DNA of 64,000 nt, from NCBI RefSeq assembly GCF_003667705.1, contig NZ_CP033019.1, positions 4,340,001 to 4,404,000 of the forward strand, read 5' to 3'. Source of the stretch: Janthinobacterium agaricidamnosum (lineage in GTDB: Bacteria > Pseudomonadota > Gammaproteobacteria > Burkholderiales > Burkholderiaceae_D). Under the pieces are notes generated by a model. It was not told where the DNA came from, did not search any database, and saw only the letters and a list, made by a program, of their open reading frames with translations. How positions within the stretch are numbered: the stretch's first letter is position 1; the number at the start of each line of letters is the position of its first letter. Shown here piece after piece: positions 51,778 through 58,527 of the stretch. A program made the translations under genes and the position numbers.

Positions 51778-52032
51778 ATGAAAAAATCCCTGCTGATCGC
51801 CTCCCTGATGGTTGTTGCTCTGGCTGCTTGCAGCAAAAAAGAAGAAGCTCCTGCACCAGCACCAGTAGTTGAAACCCCAGCACCAGCACCAGCAGTTGAA
51901 GCTGCTCCAGCTGCTGCTGCTGACGCTGCTGCTTCGGCCGCTACCGACGCTGCTGCTGCTGCTTCGAGCGCTGCTTCGGCCGCTTCGGACGCTGCTGCTG
52001 CCGCTTCGGCTGCTGCATCGGCTGCTAAGTAA
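51778..52032 (+). CDS. Small Ala-rich lipoprotein
   Basis: An 84-residue lipoprotein. Signal peptide MKKSLLIASLMVVALAAC with lipobox Cys18, then a Lys/Glu patch, a Pro-Ala linker and a tail made of Ala with regularly spaced Asp and Ser (DAAAAASSAASAASDAAAA). The tail could form a single long helix or coiled coil, reminiscent of Lpp, though it is not Lpp by sequence. GGAAAAC precedes the ATG. A strong terminator follows. The long structured leader suggests post-transcriptional control and perhaps high expression. Confidence 0.75.
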   Translation: MKKSLLIASLMVVALAACSKKEEAPAPAPVVETPAPAPAVEAAPAAAADAAASAATDAAAAASSAASAASDAAAAASAAASAAK

Positions 52033-52051
52033 TTAGCACCCAGCACTAGAG

Positions 52052-52078
52052 AAAGCCGGCCTTAGGGCCGGCTTTTTT
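52052..52078 (+). terminator. Rho-independent terminator after the lipoprotein gene
   Basis: Perfect 10-bp stem AAAGCCGGCC/GGCCGGCTTT with TTAG loop and T run. Confidence 0.88.
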
Positions 52079-52086
52079 GTTGGGTA

Positions 52087-52206
52087 AACGCCCAACCAAA
52101 CCTACTGCGCGCGGCGCTTTGCGGCCTGCGATGCTCACCGTACTAAAGTACGGTTGCGCTTCTTAGCCACAAATCACTGGCGCTCGCTACGGTTTTGTTG
52201 GGCGTT
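52087..52206 (+). repeat. Interspersed structured repeat, copy 1
   Basis: About 120 bp. The core (about 52105-52190) matches the reverse complement of 57585-57665 with few changes and contains CCGTACT-AA-AGTACGG. The ends form a 10-bp perfect inverted repeat AACGCCCAAC/GTTGGGCGTT, then a C/T mismatch, then AAACC/GGTTT. It lies between two terminators. Confidence 0.8.
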
Positions 52207-52232
52207 GCTACGTCCAAGTGCATTCACAATTA

Positions 52233-52268
52233 AAAAAGGCTGACCCGGTTTCCCGGGCCAGCCTTTTT
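52233..52268 (-). terminator. Terminator of bamC
   Basis: Stem of about 16 bp with one mismatch (AAAAAGGCTG...CAGCCTTTTT arms, TTTC loop). The A/T ends let it work on both strands; it lies 40 bp after the bamC stop. Confidence 0.8.
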
Positions 52269-52308
52269 AATGCGCGGCAGGTTCTGATGCCTGCCGCGAA
52301 TGTAGCGC

Positions 52309-53502
52309 TTATTTCAACTGATCATTCAGCAGACCCAGGATCTTCTCGGCCACCGGCGAGGTATCGGGTTTGCCTTCGTTGCTGAGGACGCTGACCAAGC
52401 TGGTCGAGCCAGTGCCGGCCTTGACCAGGACGCGGTAGCGCTGCGCTTCCTTGTCCTTGTCGGACGACGAGCCCCAGCTGAACAGCTTCGAGAAGAAGCC
52501 ATCTTTCTTGACCGCGTCCGGATCGACGTAACGCACGAAATACGTGCCTTGCGTGCGGTCGCGGTCTTCCACGGTGAAGCCGACGCGGTCCAGCGCCAGG
52601 CCGACACGGCGCCAGGCGCGGTCGAAACCCTCATCGACTTCGATGGCGCGCGCCGGCGTGGCGGCATCGCCCACCAGCTTGGCGTGCTGCGGCTGCACAA
52701 TCGCGGCATCGACGGACGTCTTCGCTTGTGCTTCGTCGCTGGCCGCGCCCAGGCGCGTCATCAGCTTGGCCAGGAATTGCGCTTCCAGGCCCGGATCGTT
52801 CGGGCGAGCGGTCCAGGTGGTGGTTTCCTTGTCGCGGCCGGTGACAACCTCTTCCACGCCGCGGTGGCTGATGTAGATCTCGGTCGAACCGTCGGCCAGG
52901 CGCTCCACGCGGGTACGGAACTTGTCTTTTTCACCGGTCGAGTACAGCGAATCGAAGGCCTTGCCGATGGTGCTGCGGATAAAGTCTTGCGGCACCTTGG
53001 CGCGGTTTTCGTTCCACTCGGTTTCCATGATGCCAGCCGTCGGCTGGTCGACGGCAATGGTAAAGCCCGAATCTTCCCAGAATTGCTTGAGCTGCGGCCA
53101 CAGCACCTCGGGCGACTGCTTGACGACCAGCCAGCGCTGGTTGCCCGCACGCTCGACCTTCACGCCGCCTGCCGTGACCGGCACCACGCCGACCACGCCG
53201 TCGGCGCCCACAACGACCGGGGTACCGGCCGTGGCGTTGCGCTGCGCGTTGTAGCCGGACGCCGTGGCCACGCCGTTTTTCGCATCCGGCAAGGAGTAGC
53301 GGTTGTCCTGCTGCAATTGCGTCAGGTCAGGCGGCACGTCCAGGGTGCCGGCTTTCTTGACCGACTTGTAGTCGACCTTGTCGCCGCCGACTACCGAACT
53401 GATCATGCCGCAGCCCGCGAGGCTGGCTGCGACGGCGCCGATGACGATGCCGCGGACGGCGATGGTGGCAGGCGCCGATTGGTTTTTCTTGCAATTAGTC
53501 AT
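52309..53502 (-). CDS. bamC: Outer-membrane assembly lipoprotein BamC
   Basis: A 397-residue lipoprotein of the BAM complex that inserts beta-barrel proteins in the outer membrane. Lipobox SLAGC (Cys31). The conserved unstructured N-terminal segment VDYKSVKKAGTLDVPPDLTQ (BamD-binding) and two helix-grip domains (QRWLVVKQSPEVLWPQLKQF; FDRAWRRVGLALDRVGFTVED) are visible. It is downstream of dapA on the same strand, the same order as dapA-bamC (nlpB) in many proteobacteria. Confidence 0.93.
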   Translation of the reverse strand: MTNCKKNQSAPATIAVRGIVIGAVAASLAGCGMISSVVGGDKVDYKSVKKAGTLDVPPDLTQLQQDNRYSLPDAKNGVATASGYNAQRNATAGTPVVVGADGVVGVVPVTAGGVKVERAGNQRWLVVKQSPEVLWPQLKQFWEDSGFTIAVDQPTAGIMETEWNENRAKVPQDFIRSTIGKAFDSLYSTGEKDKFRTRVERLADGSTEIYISHRGVEEVVTGRDKETTTWTARPNDPGLEAQFLAKLMTRLGAASDEAQAKTSVDAAIVQPQHAKLVGDAATPARAIEVDEGFDRAWRRVGLALDRVGFTVEDRDRTQGTYFVRYVDPDAVKKDGFFSKLFSWGSSSDKDKEAQRYRVLVKAGTGSTSLVSVLSNEGKPDTSPVAEKILGLLNDQLK

Positions 53503-53583
53503 GTCGTAACTGGATAAGAAGCTAAGTAGCAGCTGGAATCAGGGAAGGTCCGGACTGGTCAAGTCCGGGCTTGAAGTTCGGCC

Positions 53584-54462
53584 TTAAGACAGGACGCCGG
53601 CGTCACGCAAGGCATCGCGCACGGTGGCATGGCAGTTTTCAGCCAGCGGCACCAGTGGCAAGCGTATGCCGGCAGGCATCAGGCCCATTTCGGCCATCGC
53701 CCATTTGACGGGCACCGGGTTGGGCTCGACAAACAATTTCTGGTGCAGAGGGAAAACTTTGTTATTGATGGCAATCGCCTTGGCACGCTCGCCCGCCATG
53801 GCCGCGACGCACAGTTCGTGCATGGCGCGCGGCGCGACGTTGGCCGTCACGGAAATGTTGCCGTGACCGCCGCAGAACATCAGCGCCATGGCCGTCGGAT
53901 CGTCGCCCGAGTACACGGCGAAGTCGGCCGGCACCAGGCGCAGCAGGTCGATGCCGCGGCCGATATTGCCGGTCGCATCTTTCACGCCGACGATATTCGG
54001 GATGGCGGACAGGCGCACGATCGTTTCGTTGCTCATGTCGGCAACCGTGCGGCCAGGCACGTTGTACAGGATGACGGGGATGTCGACGGCTTCGGCGATG
54101 GCCTTGAAGTGCTGGTACATGCCTTCCTGGGTAGGACGGTTGTAGTACGGCACCACTTGCAAGACAGCATCGGCGCCCGCTTCTTTCGCGTAACGCGTCA
54201 GTTTGATGGCCTCGGCCGTGGAGTTGCCTCCGGCACCGGCGATGATAGGAATGCGTCCCTTGGCATGTTCGACGGTCAACTGGATCAGTTCGCAGTGTTC
54301 CTCCACGCTGACTGTTGCCGATTCGCCCGTTGTGCCAACGATGACGATGCCGTCCGTACCCTCGGCGATATGCCAGTCGATCAGCTTGCGCAGACCTGGA
54401 AAGTCCAGACTGCCGTCTGCGTGCATCGGGGTGACGATTGCTACAATGCTGCCCTTGATCAT
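53584..54462 (-). CDS. dapA: 4-hydroxy-tetrahydrodipicolinate synthase
   Basis: A 292-residue DapA, condensing pyruvate with aspartate semialdehyde in lysine and meso-diaminopimelate synthesis. Active-site residues match E. coli numbering exactly: Thr44, Thr45, Tyr107, Tyr133, Arg138 and Schiff-base Lys161 (VGVKDATG). It is followed by bamC, 81 bp away, probably in one operon. Confidence 0.96.
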
Positions 54463-54546
54463 AGTAAGTTTATAGCGCCGATAAATAAAACAACGATTGT
54501 AGCGGATAGCCCGCGCCTGTGGTGCATTCTGACATAGTATGGCCGC

Positions 54547-55134
54547 TCAAAACGTCGGCAGCAAGGCTGCCAACCGTGGAAAATCCGGCCGGACGGCACA
54601 AATTCGTTGCACCAGAGCAGCTTTTGGCTGTTCGACGCGCCCATCTTCATACGCTACCACACGCAAACCCTGCTGCACCGCCCAGGTCAGCATTTCGCCT
54701 TCCTTGAGCAGGAATTTCGGATTCGACGGCTTGCCGAACTGCTCATTACCCTCGGCAAACGTTTCATACAGCAGCACGCCATCGGGCGCCAGGCTGGCAA
54801 TCATGGCTTCCAGCAACGGCCGGTGCAGATAATTGGTGACGACGATGCCGGCAAAGCGGCCGGGAGCGAAGGGCCACACGGCGCCCGGCGCCTCCAGGTC
54901 CACCAGCGAGGTGGTGATACCCGTGCCGGCCGCCTTTTCCAGCATTTCCGGATCATGATCGAGCGCAAGCACCGGGTGGCCCAGGCTCACCAGGTGGCGC
55001 GCATGGCGGCCTGCGCCGCAGGCCAGGTCCAGCACTTCGCCGCCCGGGATCAGGGGCGCCCAGCGGCGCAGCCAACCGGAAATCGTTTCAGTGTCTACTG
55101 TTGGTTCAATTGCTTGCATCGGTACTTCCATCAA
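54547..55134 (-). CDS. Class I SAM-dependent methyltransferase
   Basis: A 195-residue methyltransferase. Motif I is EVLDLACGAGRHARHL, the acidic ribose-binding residue is in VLALDHDPEML, and later motifs are GIVVTNYLHRPLL and DGVLLYETFAEGNEQFG. The YETFxxGNExFG segment is typical of TehB-like/rRNA-independent small methyltransferases linked with tellurite resistance annotations. The substrate is unknown. It follows the M50 protease gene on the same strand. Confidence 0.82.
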   Translation of the reverse strand: MMEVPMQAIEPTVDTETISGWLRRWAPLIPGGEVLDLACGAGRHARHLVSLGHPVLALDHDPEMLEKAAGTGITTSLVDLEAPGAVWPFAPGRFAGIVVTNYLHRPLLEAMIASLAPDGVLLYETFAEGNEQFGKPSNPKFLLKEGEMLTWAVQQGLRVVAYEDGRVEQPKAALVQRICAVRPDFPRLAALLPTF

Positions 55135-55161
55135 TTATTTACAACCATCCAGTTGCTTGCA

Positions 55162-55839
55162 TCAAGTCAACAGGGCCGTCAGGGGCGTGACCACGGTGAC
55201 AAAAATGCCTATGACAAATTCGATCGCCGTCAGCAGGGCGCGGTTCAGGATGCCCGTGTACATCAGCAGCACCAGGGCGCCGAACACATACAGGCTGTAG
55301 CGCTCGATGCTGGCGTACGGGCGCGCCAGCTGCATCGGCAGCAAGCCCGTCATGATGCGTCCGCCATCGAGCGGCGGCACGGGAATCAGGTTAAAGACGA
55401 ACATGGCCGCATTGACGCTGACGCCGGCGCCCGCCATCTTGCGGAAAAACATGCCCATTTCCGTCGGCGGCAGCACGCTGAGCACGACAAAGGCGATCAT
55501 CCAGCCCAGGCCCATGACGAAATTGGCGCCAGGCCCGGCAAACGCCACCCAGGCCATCTGTTTCTTCGGATTGCGCAGGCGGCTGAAATCGACGGGCACC
55601 GGCTTGGCATAGCCGAACGGTACCTGGATCGTGAAATACAGTATCAACGGCAGCAGGATCGTGCCGAAAGGATCGATATGCCGGATCGGATTGAGGCTCA
55701 GCCTGCCCTCGTTCGAGGCCGTGGGGTCGCCGAAATAGCGGGCGGCGTAGCCATGCGCCGCCTCATGCAGGGAAATGGCAAACAGCACCGGCACCAGGTA
55801 CACCGCAACGGTCTGGACTATCGTATTGAAATCGCTCAT
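55162..55839 (-). CDS. Site-2 protease family (M50) membrane metalloprotease
   Basis: A 225-residue, five- to six-TM protein. The zinc motif is HEAAH (His25, Glu26, His29) and the second metal motif is NLIPVPPLDGGR. PxGPGAN-like FAGPGANFVMGLG is typical of the short bacterial M50 group. These cleave within membranes, but targets of this small subgroup are mostly unknown. It lies between the yciO-type gene and the methyltransferase gene in the same direction. Confidence 0.88.
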   Translation of the reverse strand: MSDFNTIVQTVAVYLVPVLFAISLHEAAHGYAARYFGDPTASNEGRLSLNPIRHIDPFGTILLPLILYFTIQVPFGYAKPVPVDFSRLRNPKKQMAWVAFAGPGANFVMGLGWMIAFVVLSVLPPTEMGMFFRKMAGAGVSVNAAMFVFNLIPVPPLDGGRIMTGLLPMQLARPYASIERYSLYVFGALVLLMYTGILNRALLTAIEFVIGIFVTVVTPLTALLT

Positions 55840-55933
55840 GACCGCGATTCTACCAGAGGCGTCCCAGGCCCTTTCTTACGTTGTCATTAAGAACAAATGA
55901 AGAGCTGCGCCGCAACAGGTGGGCAATGCCCCT

Positions 55934-56557
55934 CTACAAGCCCAGCACGGCAGGGTCGCCGCGTCCCACGCGCACCACTTCCGGCTCTGGCCCCGTCAGG
56001 TCGATCACGGTGCTGGGGCCGTGCGCGCAGACGCCGCCGTCGATGATCAGGTCGACCAGTTTTTCCAGGCGTTCGCGGATGGTGTCGGCATCCGTCAGGC
56101 TCTCCTCGTCGCCGGGCAGGGTCAATGTCGCACCCAGCAGCGGCTGGCCCAGCTCTTCCAGCAGGCATTGCACGATGCGGTGCTGCGGCACGCGCAGGCC
56201 GATGGTCTTGCGCGAAGGATGGCTGAGGCGGCGCGGCACTTCCTTGGTCGCTTCCAGGATGAAGGTGTAGGCGCCCGGCGTGGCCGCCTTGAGCAGGCGG
56301 AACTGGCGGTTGTCGACTCTGGCATACACGCCCAGCTCGCTCAAGTCGCGGCACAGCAAGGTCAGATGGTGCTTTTCATCCACGCCACGGATGCGGCGCA
56401 GGCGCTCGACGGCGCCCTTGTCGTCGAGCTGGCACACCAGCGCGTAGCAGGAATCGGTGGGCAAGGCCACGACGCCGCCGGACTGGATGATCTGGGCCGC
56501 CTGCTTGATCAGGCGCAATTGCGGATTCTCAGGGTGAATCTGGAAAAATTGACTCAT
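55934..56557 (-). CDS. YciO/Sua5 family threonylcarbamoyl-AMP synthase-like protein
   Basis: A 207-residue protein of the YrdC/Sua5/YciO family. Visible are GGVVALPTDSCYALVCQ, RRIRGVDEKHHLTLLCRDL (the KxR..K nucleotide-binding motif varied), PGAYTFILEAT and VRVPQH-type IGLRVPQHRIVQ. Family members make threonylcarbamoyl-AMP for tRNA t6A; the YciO branch is less active on that reaction. I place it with YciO because of length and the altered motif. Confidence 0.85.
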   Translation of the reverse strand: MSQFFQIHPENPQLRLIKQAAQIIQSGGVVALPTDSCYALVCQLDDKGAVERLRRIRGVDEKHHLTLLCRDLSELGVYARVDNRQFRLLKAATPGAYTFILEATKEVPRRLSHPSRKTIGLRVPQHRIVQCLLEELGQPLLGATLTLPGDEESLTDADTIRERLEKLVDLIIDGGVCAHGPSTVIDLTGPEPEVVRVGRGDPAVLGL

Positions 56558-56595
56558 GTGTAAGCGTTCTGGCGAACCAGCTTGTTAAGTTAGCA

Positions 56596-57480
56596 TTATT
56601 GTACGCCGCGCAGCGCGGCGATACGTTGTTCGATGGGCGGATGGGTGGCGAACAGCGCGCCCCAGCCGCCATTGCCGCCGCTGATGCCCAGCGCCTGCAT
56701 CGATTGCGGCAGTTCGCCCGGCGGCACGCCGCCCAGGCGGGCCAGCGCATGCATCATCGGCGTGGGGCTGCCCAGCAGCTTGGCTGAACCGGCATCGGCG
56801 CGGAATTCGCGCTGGCGCGAGAACCAGGCGACGATGATGGAAGCGAGCAAGCCGAAGATCACTTCGCACACCATCACGGTCACAAAGTAACCGATGCCGC
56901 GCCCGCCGCCTTCGCGGTTGTTATTTTTCAACAGCACATTGTCGACAAAGAAACCCACTACGCGGGCCATGAAGACGACAAAGGTATTCACCACGCCCTG
57001 GATCAGGGTCAAGGTGACCATGTCGCCATTGGCAACGTGGGCGATCTCGTGGCCCAGCACGGCCTCGACTTCATCGCGGTTCATGCTTTGCAGCAAACCG
57101 GTGGACACGGCCACCAGCGCCGAATTCTTGAACGCGCCCGTGGCAAACGCATTCGCGTCGCCTTCGTACACGGCCACTTCCGGCATGCCGATGCCGGCCC
57201 GCTCGGACAGCGCACGCACGGTATTGACCAGCCACAATTCCGTCGACGAGGTCGGATTGTCGATCACGCGCGCGCCCGTGCTCCACTTGGCCATCGGCTT
57301 GCTGATCAACAGGGAAAAGATGGACCCGGTGAAACCCACCACCAGCGAAAACACCAGCAGGCTGCCCAGGTTCAGGGTACTGCCCCGCGCCGGATTGCCC
57401 ACGCCCAACAAGCTGAGGACGAGCGACAGCACCAGCATCACGGCCAGGTTGGTTGCAATAAAAAGGACGATACGTTTCAT
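56596..57480 (-). CDS. htpX: Membrane zinc protease HtpX
   Basis: A 294-residue HtpX of family M48, an inner-membrane quality-control protease that cleaves misfolded membrane proteins under stress. Two N-terminal TM segments, zinc motif HEIAH (His144, Glu145, His148), two further hydrophobic segments and the third ligand in [10 protein letters not shown]. The start at 57480 ([14 protein letters not shown]) is the family start and has GGAG upstream. Confidence 0.95.
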
Positions 57481-57573
57481 GGGCGATGGCTCCAGATGAC
57501 TATGTATAACAAGAATAACAAAAAGATATGCACGCAAACGCAGATTTCAAGCAGCGACACGACGGCGCATCGG

Positions 57574-57689
57574 CAGCCAGGAAAATCGTCGCGAGCGGCA
57601 GTGATTTGTGGCCGAGAAGCGCAACCGTACTGGAGTACGGTGAGCATCGCCGGCCGCAAAGCGCGCCGCGCAGCAGATTTGCCTGGCTG
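57574..57689 (-). repeat. Interspersed structured repeat, copy 2
   Basis: Reverse-orientation copy of 52087-52206. The core contains CCGTACT-GG-AGTACGG as read on the plus strand. The ends form CAGCCAGG/CCTGGCTG, then a mismatch, then AAATC/GATTT. The outer stem differs in sequence from copy 1 yet is still fully paired. It lies between htpX and the PHP-domain gene, just downstream of the latter. Confidence 0.8.
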
Positions 57690-57693
57690 TCAG

Positions 57694-58527
57694 CTAAAAC
57701 CAGTCGTGCCAGATGGGGGTTACGTTGGCAGGCAACGGCGGCAGCATGGCAAAATCCACGCGCGATTCGCCCGGCGCATGGAAATCCGTGCCGCGCGAGG
57801 CGAGGAAGCCGTAGGCATTGGCCAGCTGCGCGTATTCCGGATACTGGTCCGGACTGTGGCTGCCCGTGACGACTTCGATGGCCGCGCCGCCGAGTTGCTT
57901 GAATTCATCGAACAGCACGCCTTGCGCCATGTCGCTGAAGCGGTAGCGGCCCGGGTGGGCGATAACGGCCACGCCGCCCGCGCCGCGTATCCAGCCCACG
58001 GCTTCGGCCAGGGTGGCCCAGCGGTGCTCGACATAGCCCGGCTTGCCTTCCAACAGGTATTTCTTGAACACGTCGGGGATATTCGCGCATTTGCCCATTT
58101 CCACGATGTAGCGGGCAAAGTGCGTGCGCGACATCAGGTCCGGGTTGCCGACGAATTTCAAGGCCCCTTCATAGGCGTCGGGGATGCCGGCCAGGTCCAG
58201 CTGGCGGGCAATCTCGCGGCCGCGCGCGTCGCGCCCCGAACGCGTCTGGTGCAAGCCCTGCACGAGGCCCGGGTTGTTTTCATCGACTTGCAAGCCCACG
58301 ATGTGCACGGTTTCGCCGGCCCAGGTGATCGAGATTTCCACGCCGGCCACGAAACGCATGCCCAGGTCCAGCGCGGCCGCGCGCGCGGCGGCCACGCCGG
58401 ACACTTCATCGTGGTCCGTCAGCGCCCACACATCGACGCCCGCCTTGCGCGCGTGCGCCGCCACGGCGGCCGGTGACAGCACGCCGTCGGAGATATTCGA
58501 ATGACAATGCAGGTCGACTTTAAGCAT
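57694..58527 (-). CDS. PHP-domain phosphatase (3',5'-nucleoside bisphosphate phosphatase, YciV/RNase AM type)
   Basis: A 277-residue PHP protein. Metal ligands include VDLHCHSNISDG (His7, His9, Asp14), ALTDHDEVSG, GVEISITWAG, AVIAHPGRYR and SRGTDFHAPGE. E. coli YciV removes the 3'-phosphate from pAp and acts as a 5'-3' exonuclease on short RNAs and rRNA ends. Motifs, including the insert VGNPDLMSRTHFARYIVE, fit that branch. Confidence 0.87.
   Translation of the reverse strand: MLKVDLHCHSNISDGVLSPAAVAAHARKAGVDVWALTDHDEVSGVAAARAAALDLGMRFVAGVEISITWAGETVHIVGLQVDENNPGLVQGLHQTRSGRDARGREIARQLDLAGIPDAYEGALKFVGNPDLMSRTHFARYIVEMGKCANIPDVFKKYLLEGKPGYVEHRWATLAEAVGWIRGAGGVAVIAHPGRYRFSDMAQGVLFDEFKQLGGAAIEVVTGSHSPDQYPEYAQLANAYGFLASRGTDFHAPGESRVDFAMLPPLPANVTPIWHDWF

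Follow-up and report, generated by a model that had tools for sequence, protein, structure and literature searches.

Hairpin repeats of Janthinobacterium form a dispersed family whose outer stem drifts while remaining paired

The two inverted repeats in the window (the whole stretch of 64,000 nucleotides of Janthinobacterium agaricidamnosum analyzed here) were confirmed as members of a dispersed repeat family, the outer stem of which drifts freely yet remains paired. Our preferred explanation, to which we give an even chance, is that both copies belong to a non-autonomous mobile hairpin family. Bacterial genomes often contain small mobile palindromes, many of which have no known mobilizing enzyme. 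Movement that depended on the fold and not on end sequences would depart from the usual terminal-repeat reading and would allow direct tests of how such repeats spread. The family offers two handles: fixed loops within a drifting stem, where one strand is recognizable as the folded one, and the strongly directional way in which the element adjoins stop codons in a genus that can be cultured.

Both copies were recovered where the original prediction had placed them, at 52087–52206 (+) and 57574–57689 (−). Q denotes the orientation used there (CACCGTACT..AGTACGGTTGCGC) and R its complement. The relevant features are the following.

52084..52210, minus strand: copy 1, full model match (R1 match, 137.5 bits; R is the minus strand, Q the plus strand)
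52087..52096, plus strand: copy 1 outer arm AACGCCCAAC, from sequence and folding
52197..52206, plus strand: copy 1 outer arm GTTGGGCGTT, from sequence and folding
52309..53502, minus strand: ORF of 397 aa converging on copy 1, query for named relatives
57568..57694, plus strand: copy 2, full model match (R1 match, 138.6 bits; R is the plus strand, Q the minus strand)
57574..57581, minus strand: copy 2 outer arm CCTGGCTG, from sequence and folding
57682..57689, minus strand: copy 2 outer arm CAGCCAGG, from sequence and folding
57694..58527, minus strand: ORF of 277 aa with its TAG stop against copy 2 (gap of 2 by the model boundary)

As predicted, the arms are self-complementary within each copy (AACGCCCAAC/GTTGGGCGTT and CAGCCAGG/CCTGGCTG) and are followed inward by a C-T mismatch and then AAAYC/GRTTT in both. 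A 28-base core pattern (≤3 mismatches) matched twice in the window and not once in any of 100 shuffles. On each strand, both copies had a better fold than any of 200 shuffles (z −4.8 to −7.5), with energies of −63.3 (R) vs −58.8 kcal/mol (Q) for copy 1 and −74.1 (R) vs −63.1 kcal/mol (Q) for copy 2. The shared core, originally put at about 85 bp, was found to be longer, at ~100 bp (88% identity over query positions 9–108). The claim that the outer ends differ completely holds for these two copies and fails across the family, where the arms of 36–38 copies form a single covarying stem with the genus consensus RACRCCTGAC / GTCAGGYGTY. The arms of the window copies look unrelated because both are far from this consensus.

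The predicted location at the 3′ side of genes was also found. Four bases separate CAGCCAGG of copy 2 from the TAG of ORF 57694–58527, which is sense with the Q strand and presumably encodes a PHP-phosphoesterase-like protein, judging from its sequence. Copy 1 is flanked by two convergent ORFs, the left of which is followed first by a terminator-like hairpin and then by the copy. The other, ORF 52309–53502, which we take to be BamC-like from a reading of its sequence, was 87–98% identical across the 19 Janthinobacterium records compared, which puts the window in this genus. Beside copy 1, the ORF end at 51900–52032 contains a long Ala/Ser-rich low-complexity stretch, the repeat pattern of which varies between strains. 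Strains without a copy at this site (L133–L138, L185, L188; 8790–8850) carry another palindrome of ~40 bp with arms like GCGTCCGGCGT / ACGCCGGACGC around TTATCC..GGATAA; by eye, these arms seem to covary between strains, too. An Rfam cmscan of 51900–57900 (E ≤ 5) gave nine weak matches, of which only one overlapped a copy, an sX6 match at copy 1 that scored 16.1 bits, below the cut-off of 40.

A blastn search of the genome with copy 2 gave at least 40 distinct places, with the best 40 of 144 candidates scored. Of 38 copies aligned, 36 on the R strand were kept for a covariance model (two with long inserts were omitted), which at E ≤ 1 matched 103 times, a count that includes opposite-strand repeats. 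Scanning of the loci and merging of overlaps left 79 places on the one contig of 6,357,735 bases, 74 of them 120–142 nt long and five of 50–78 nt that retain both ends; the weakest place, L124 (E 0.006), is doubtful. The family length is about 121 bp, with shorter and longer forms present. Thus the search of the genome and its relatives, which the original prediction had called for, revealed not two copies only, nor many copies with non-complementary outer arms, but many copies with arms that stay paired. Matches occurred in 37 of 40 genomes of the genus (0 to at least 87 copies each, 87 being the scoring cap) and, at E ≤ 1e-4, in 107 of 195 genomes of the GTDB family, spread over 32 of its 44 genera; the latter counts are lower bounds, as filters were stricter and the best 17 candidates were scored per genome. 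Copies were present in 13 of 80 named loci, every one from Janthinobacterium. Plasmids and phages gave no match at E 1e-5, and among the papers listed by literature searches none gave an account of this repeat for Janthinobacterium. In a longer form of ~139–142 nt, the apex region contains additional bases such as GGCTCGGCGCC; this form was met repeatedly, both in several genera and at individual orthologous sites, and loci with it include L022, L101, L103, L105, L108–L112, L115, L117, and L118.

RNAalifold assigned 38 pairs to the aligned copies of this genome, 24 of which change on both sides, on each strand. In rows from 13 other genera, 28 of 38 pairs change on both sides. This second set comprises 70 copies from 15 genomes and 13 genera, selected as matching and mostly best-scoring, and each of the 14 pairs of its outer stem shows changes on both sides. 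Over 74 rows, of which four are opposite-strand repeats, 492 double-change cells were counted vs 106 after shuffling and 64–110 after sliding. Paired cells amounted to 97.1% (shuffled: 77.4%) in these rows and to 98.9% in the 40 distinct rows of the genus set, percentages that model-fitted alignments tend to inflate; the genus set had 96 double-change cells vs 21 shuffled. On the R strand of the other genera, the internal loops GTAGCGAGCGG / CGCGCAGTAG and GAGAAGCGCA / GAGCATCGCA are nearly fixed. The stem varies while the loops stay fixed, and conservation is lowest at the ends of the element, which encloses a conserved GTAG..GTAG core of an estimated 91 nt. The very strong covariation of the stem supports selection on the folded form, as originally proposed.

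G-T wobbles were distributed unevenly between the strands. Over all pairs, the R:Q ratio was 80:0 (41 rows), 185:23 (79 rows), and 153:20 (70 rows), and in the outer stem 14:0, 58:16, and 47:10; for this stem, 45 rows, some of them shared with these sets, gave 41:7. These main counts rest on an R-strand model; in a structure-free control of 30 plain-blastn copies read at fixed offsets, the direction was unchanged and the size smaller (23:8, with 57 other mismatches). Orthologous copies (19 rows, four sites) contained nine wobble intermediates on R and two on Q. Since R holds most wobbles, a folded single strand (R, as RNA or single-stranded DNA) seems to be under selection. Of the earlier suggestion that the fold acts in RNA or as a DNA cruciform, the single-strand part is thereby retained, while a cruciform alone is disfavored because it would not bias wobbles to one strand. 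Targeting of a replication strand was considered and rejected: with the origin guessed from the GC skew of genome pieces, R lay on plus and minus strands at 20:20 in the first genome half and 17:22 in the second.

Strains differ in element presence at several sites within 16 kb. The element was found in five of 27 aligned loci at site A (three skipped) and in four of 30 at site B, which additionally has one internally deleted copy. At both sites empty strains have a single TAA, whereas in filled strains TAA flanks the element on either side, and TTA is likewise duplicated at site 5 in the filled strain L131. In other genera, the two 4-mers lying one base beyond the arms are identical in 16 of 70 copies, compared to 0.75 expected (mean of 40 shuffles, highest 3), and six clear 6-bp duplications were seen (CTTATG, CTTCTG, CCATTG, CATCAG, CTAAAG, and CTTACG), the duplications there measuring 4–6 bp. 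The evidence for target duplication is therefore solid in other genera. In the own genus it is weak and based on the three sites: flanking 3-mers agree in 10 of 79 copies of the own genome vs 4.3 expected, with 10 also reached by one of 40 shuffles, and enrichment was absent from 40 copies of other genomes of the genus. Presence and absence between strains, together with the duplications in other genera, agree with the mobile element reading of the original prediction.

Two further sites, S293 (element in five of 30 strains) and S289 (seven of 30, one shortened), are not clean insertions, because the other strains have several unrelated segments after the stop. At S293, strains L320, L321, L324, and L326 carry another hairpin, GGGGTCTGACCC..GGGTCAGACCCC, directly after the same stop codon, and whole 3′ UTR segments have been swapped among strains. 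Insertion into pre-existing hairpins, with arms derived from the target, was considered in view of the other palindromes at empty sites 1 and 2. It was rejected, as the arms share the genus consensus in 38 copies and no comparable palindrome was seen by eye at empty sites A and B.

The position of the copies relative to stop codons was strongly one-sided. Gene ends were taken from ORFs, not annotation, with a rule of ≥100 codons and third-position GC > 0.6 on both sides in the own genome. A Q-sense ORF ends ≤3 nt from the element in 47 of 79 copies and an R-sense ORF in one of 79. The stops at the 47 anchored copies are 29 TAA, 15 TGA, and 3 TAG; gaps from stop to element range from −2 to +2, and the first bases of the element complete the stop after T. 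In seven other genomes of the genus (80 codons, third-position GC 0.65), 20 Q-sense vs one R-sense contact were counted among 41 copies of the best-scoring list, 15 vs 1 of 27 without sites common to the own genome, and 11 vs 1 of 20 with one copy per site. The bias is weak in other genera (16 vs 9 of 70). Gene truncation as the source of the boundary stops was rejected: element-less strains have the same end codon (A, S293, S289), and among the 79 Q-sense ORFs just four stop at −9 and one at −12, inside the element (search depth 12 nt). The suggested role as a termination element found no support, with ≥5 T in the 8 nt directly after the hairpin in only 5 of 79 (Q) and 1 of 79 (R), the signature of an intrinsic terminator. 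Nor do the copies appear to substitute for terminators, as a terminator-like site lies downstream in 11 of 47 stop-anchored copies vs six of 49 window ORFs.

No mobilizing enzyme was found near the copies or via Y1_Tnp. Within ~1–1.5 kb of the examined copies no transposase gene recurred (clusters judged by eye); none of the 12 top clusters among 2204 ORFs looked transposase-like, and the largest resembles read-through of the element itself. Y1_Tnp genes were present in 40 of 40 genus genomes (1–8 each), independent of hairpin copy number, and the strongest matches fell in G011, G015, G021, and G031, with 0, 10, 1, and 1 copies. The earlier idea of a RAYT-driven REP is not supported by this distribution.

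According to our preferred explanation, an enzyme acting in trans would take the loops and shape of the folded R strand (RNA or single-stranded DNA), not its end sequences, as the recognition signal, and would join the element at short targets in which TNA is frequent. In Janthinobacterium, stop triplets may be targets that are reached by integration or kept by selection. The gene would be unharmed because its stop is retained, or rebuilt from the first bases of the element (T + AA or GA). Against this explanation stand the missing enzyme, the weak duplication signal in the own genus, the weak stop bias in other genera, the sites S293 and S289, and the smaller wobble asymmetry of the structure-free control. 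A SINE-like bacterial element is a quite unlikely reading: R would be a structured RNA, taken up by a reverse transcriptase or a comparable enzyme of the host and copied into the DNA where staggered cuts occur; in Janthinobacterium, insertion would be aimed at stops in one orientation, perhaps via translation termination. Such an element would explain in one scheme the fixed loops, the drifting yet paired ends, the concentration of wobbles on one strand, the target duplications, and the directed placement at stops.

An ordinary MITE, in which a DDE transposase moves double-stranded DNA and leaves 4–6 bp duplications, the hairpin being retained for an RNA role or as an inverted-repeat by-product, appears doubtful to us. 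The exact 4-mer duplications of other genera, the variable copy number within the genus, and the internal-deletion forms that retain both ends argue for it, and target-site duplication, expected of a MITE, was found in other genera and with weak statistics at three sites in the own genus. MITE ends, however, are normally conserved. Here, conserved terminal inverted repeats common to an autonomous element were not found and the ends vary most; wobbles are concentrated on one strand, and the surroundings of the copies revealed no recurrent transposase, though an autonomous partner farther away may exist. We regard as unlikely a host-functional 3′-end RNA element, spread by mobility and kept in Q at stops, whose hairpin protects, processes, or regulates transcripts. 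The one-sided stop contact in the genus and the covarying structure with fixed loops would fit, but R, which pairs better, runs antisense to the upstream gene, the terminator signature is rare, terminator-like sites still lie downstream of anchored copies, and copy number ranges from none to at least 87 within the genus.

Template switching in replication, which copies one arm onto the other without selection, is known as quasi-palindrome correction for imperfect palindromes and would produce palindromes of arbitrary sequence. It predicts unbiased wobbles, contrary to the outer-stem ratios, and leaves both the fixed loops beside drifting stems and the stop-codon placement unexplained; we consider it very unlikely. 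We deem a REP moved by RAYT (Y1 transposase) extremely unlikely. Its 3′-side placement agrees with REPs reported, in the available portion of the source, downstream of coding regions and often supplying TAG stops (PMC3733652), but the length of ~121 bp instead of 20–40 bp, the internal GTAG in place of a terminal tag, the target duplications, and the unrelated Y1_Tnp genes all speak against it.

Among known repeats, the closest in kind are ERIC, bcr1, and REPs. In the available text, GTAG/CGTC-tagged REPs are palindromes downstream of genes, with G-T pairing in the stem and termini that supply stop codons (PMC3733652), features that the hairpin family shares. The latter is much longer than the REP palindrome, carries GTAG inside the outer stem and not unpaired at one end, and has target duplications without a link to Y1 transposases. 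Stop contact thus has a precedent in GTAG REPs; its one-sidedness and size are the unusual part. The Beta-proteobacterial repeat element (BRE) is described, in the available part of the report, as ~90 bp long, mostly intergenic, with ≤29 copies per genome and features of a mobile element (Hot et al., 2011; PMC3110155). As a dispersed repeat of Betaproteobacteria with a length that fits the ~91-nt core, it resembles the present family, and it differs as a variable-number tandem repeat with 69% GC (PMC3110155). The drifting outer stem, strand asymmetry, and stop contact seen here were not met in that part of the BRE description (PMC3110155). Compared by description only, BRE may be the core of the hairpin family, part of which would then already have been described.

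The bcr1 repeat is a mobile intergenic palindrome with foldable transcripts and variable copy number. It appears in table entries among the repeats of the Bacillus cereus group (PMC2267715), and the same properties are given for ERIC of enterobacteria (PMC2229807), as far as the available portions of these sources describe. Both resemble the hairpin family as mobile palindromes of 100–170 bp. By blastn the family is not ERIC, as no similar sequence was found in 20,395 E. coli records (E 1e-5). To our knowledge, neither the combination of fixed loops and an outer stem free to drift nor one-sided stop contact is known for ERIC or bcr1. Integron attC sites are one-strand hairpins recognized by shape with poorly conserved arms, and the hairpin family likewise combines poorly conserved arms with a one-strand fold; it differs in its short target duplications. 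An attC identity was rejected because conserved RYYYAAC ... GTTRRRY ends were not found across genera and the copies are dispersed and not arranged in cassette arrays. One tandem pair of copies was seen in L142 (11232–11494), with the same GTGACGCTGGTGG behind each.
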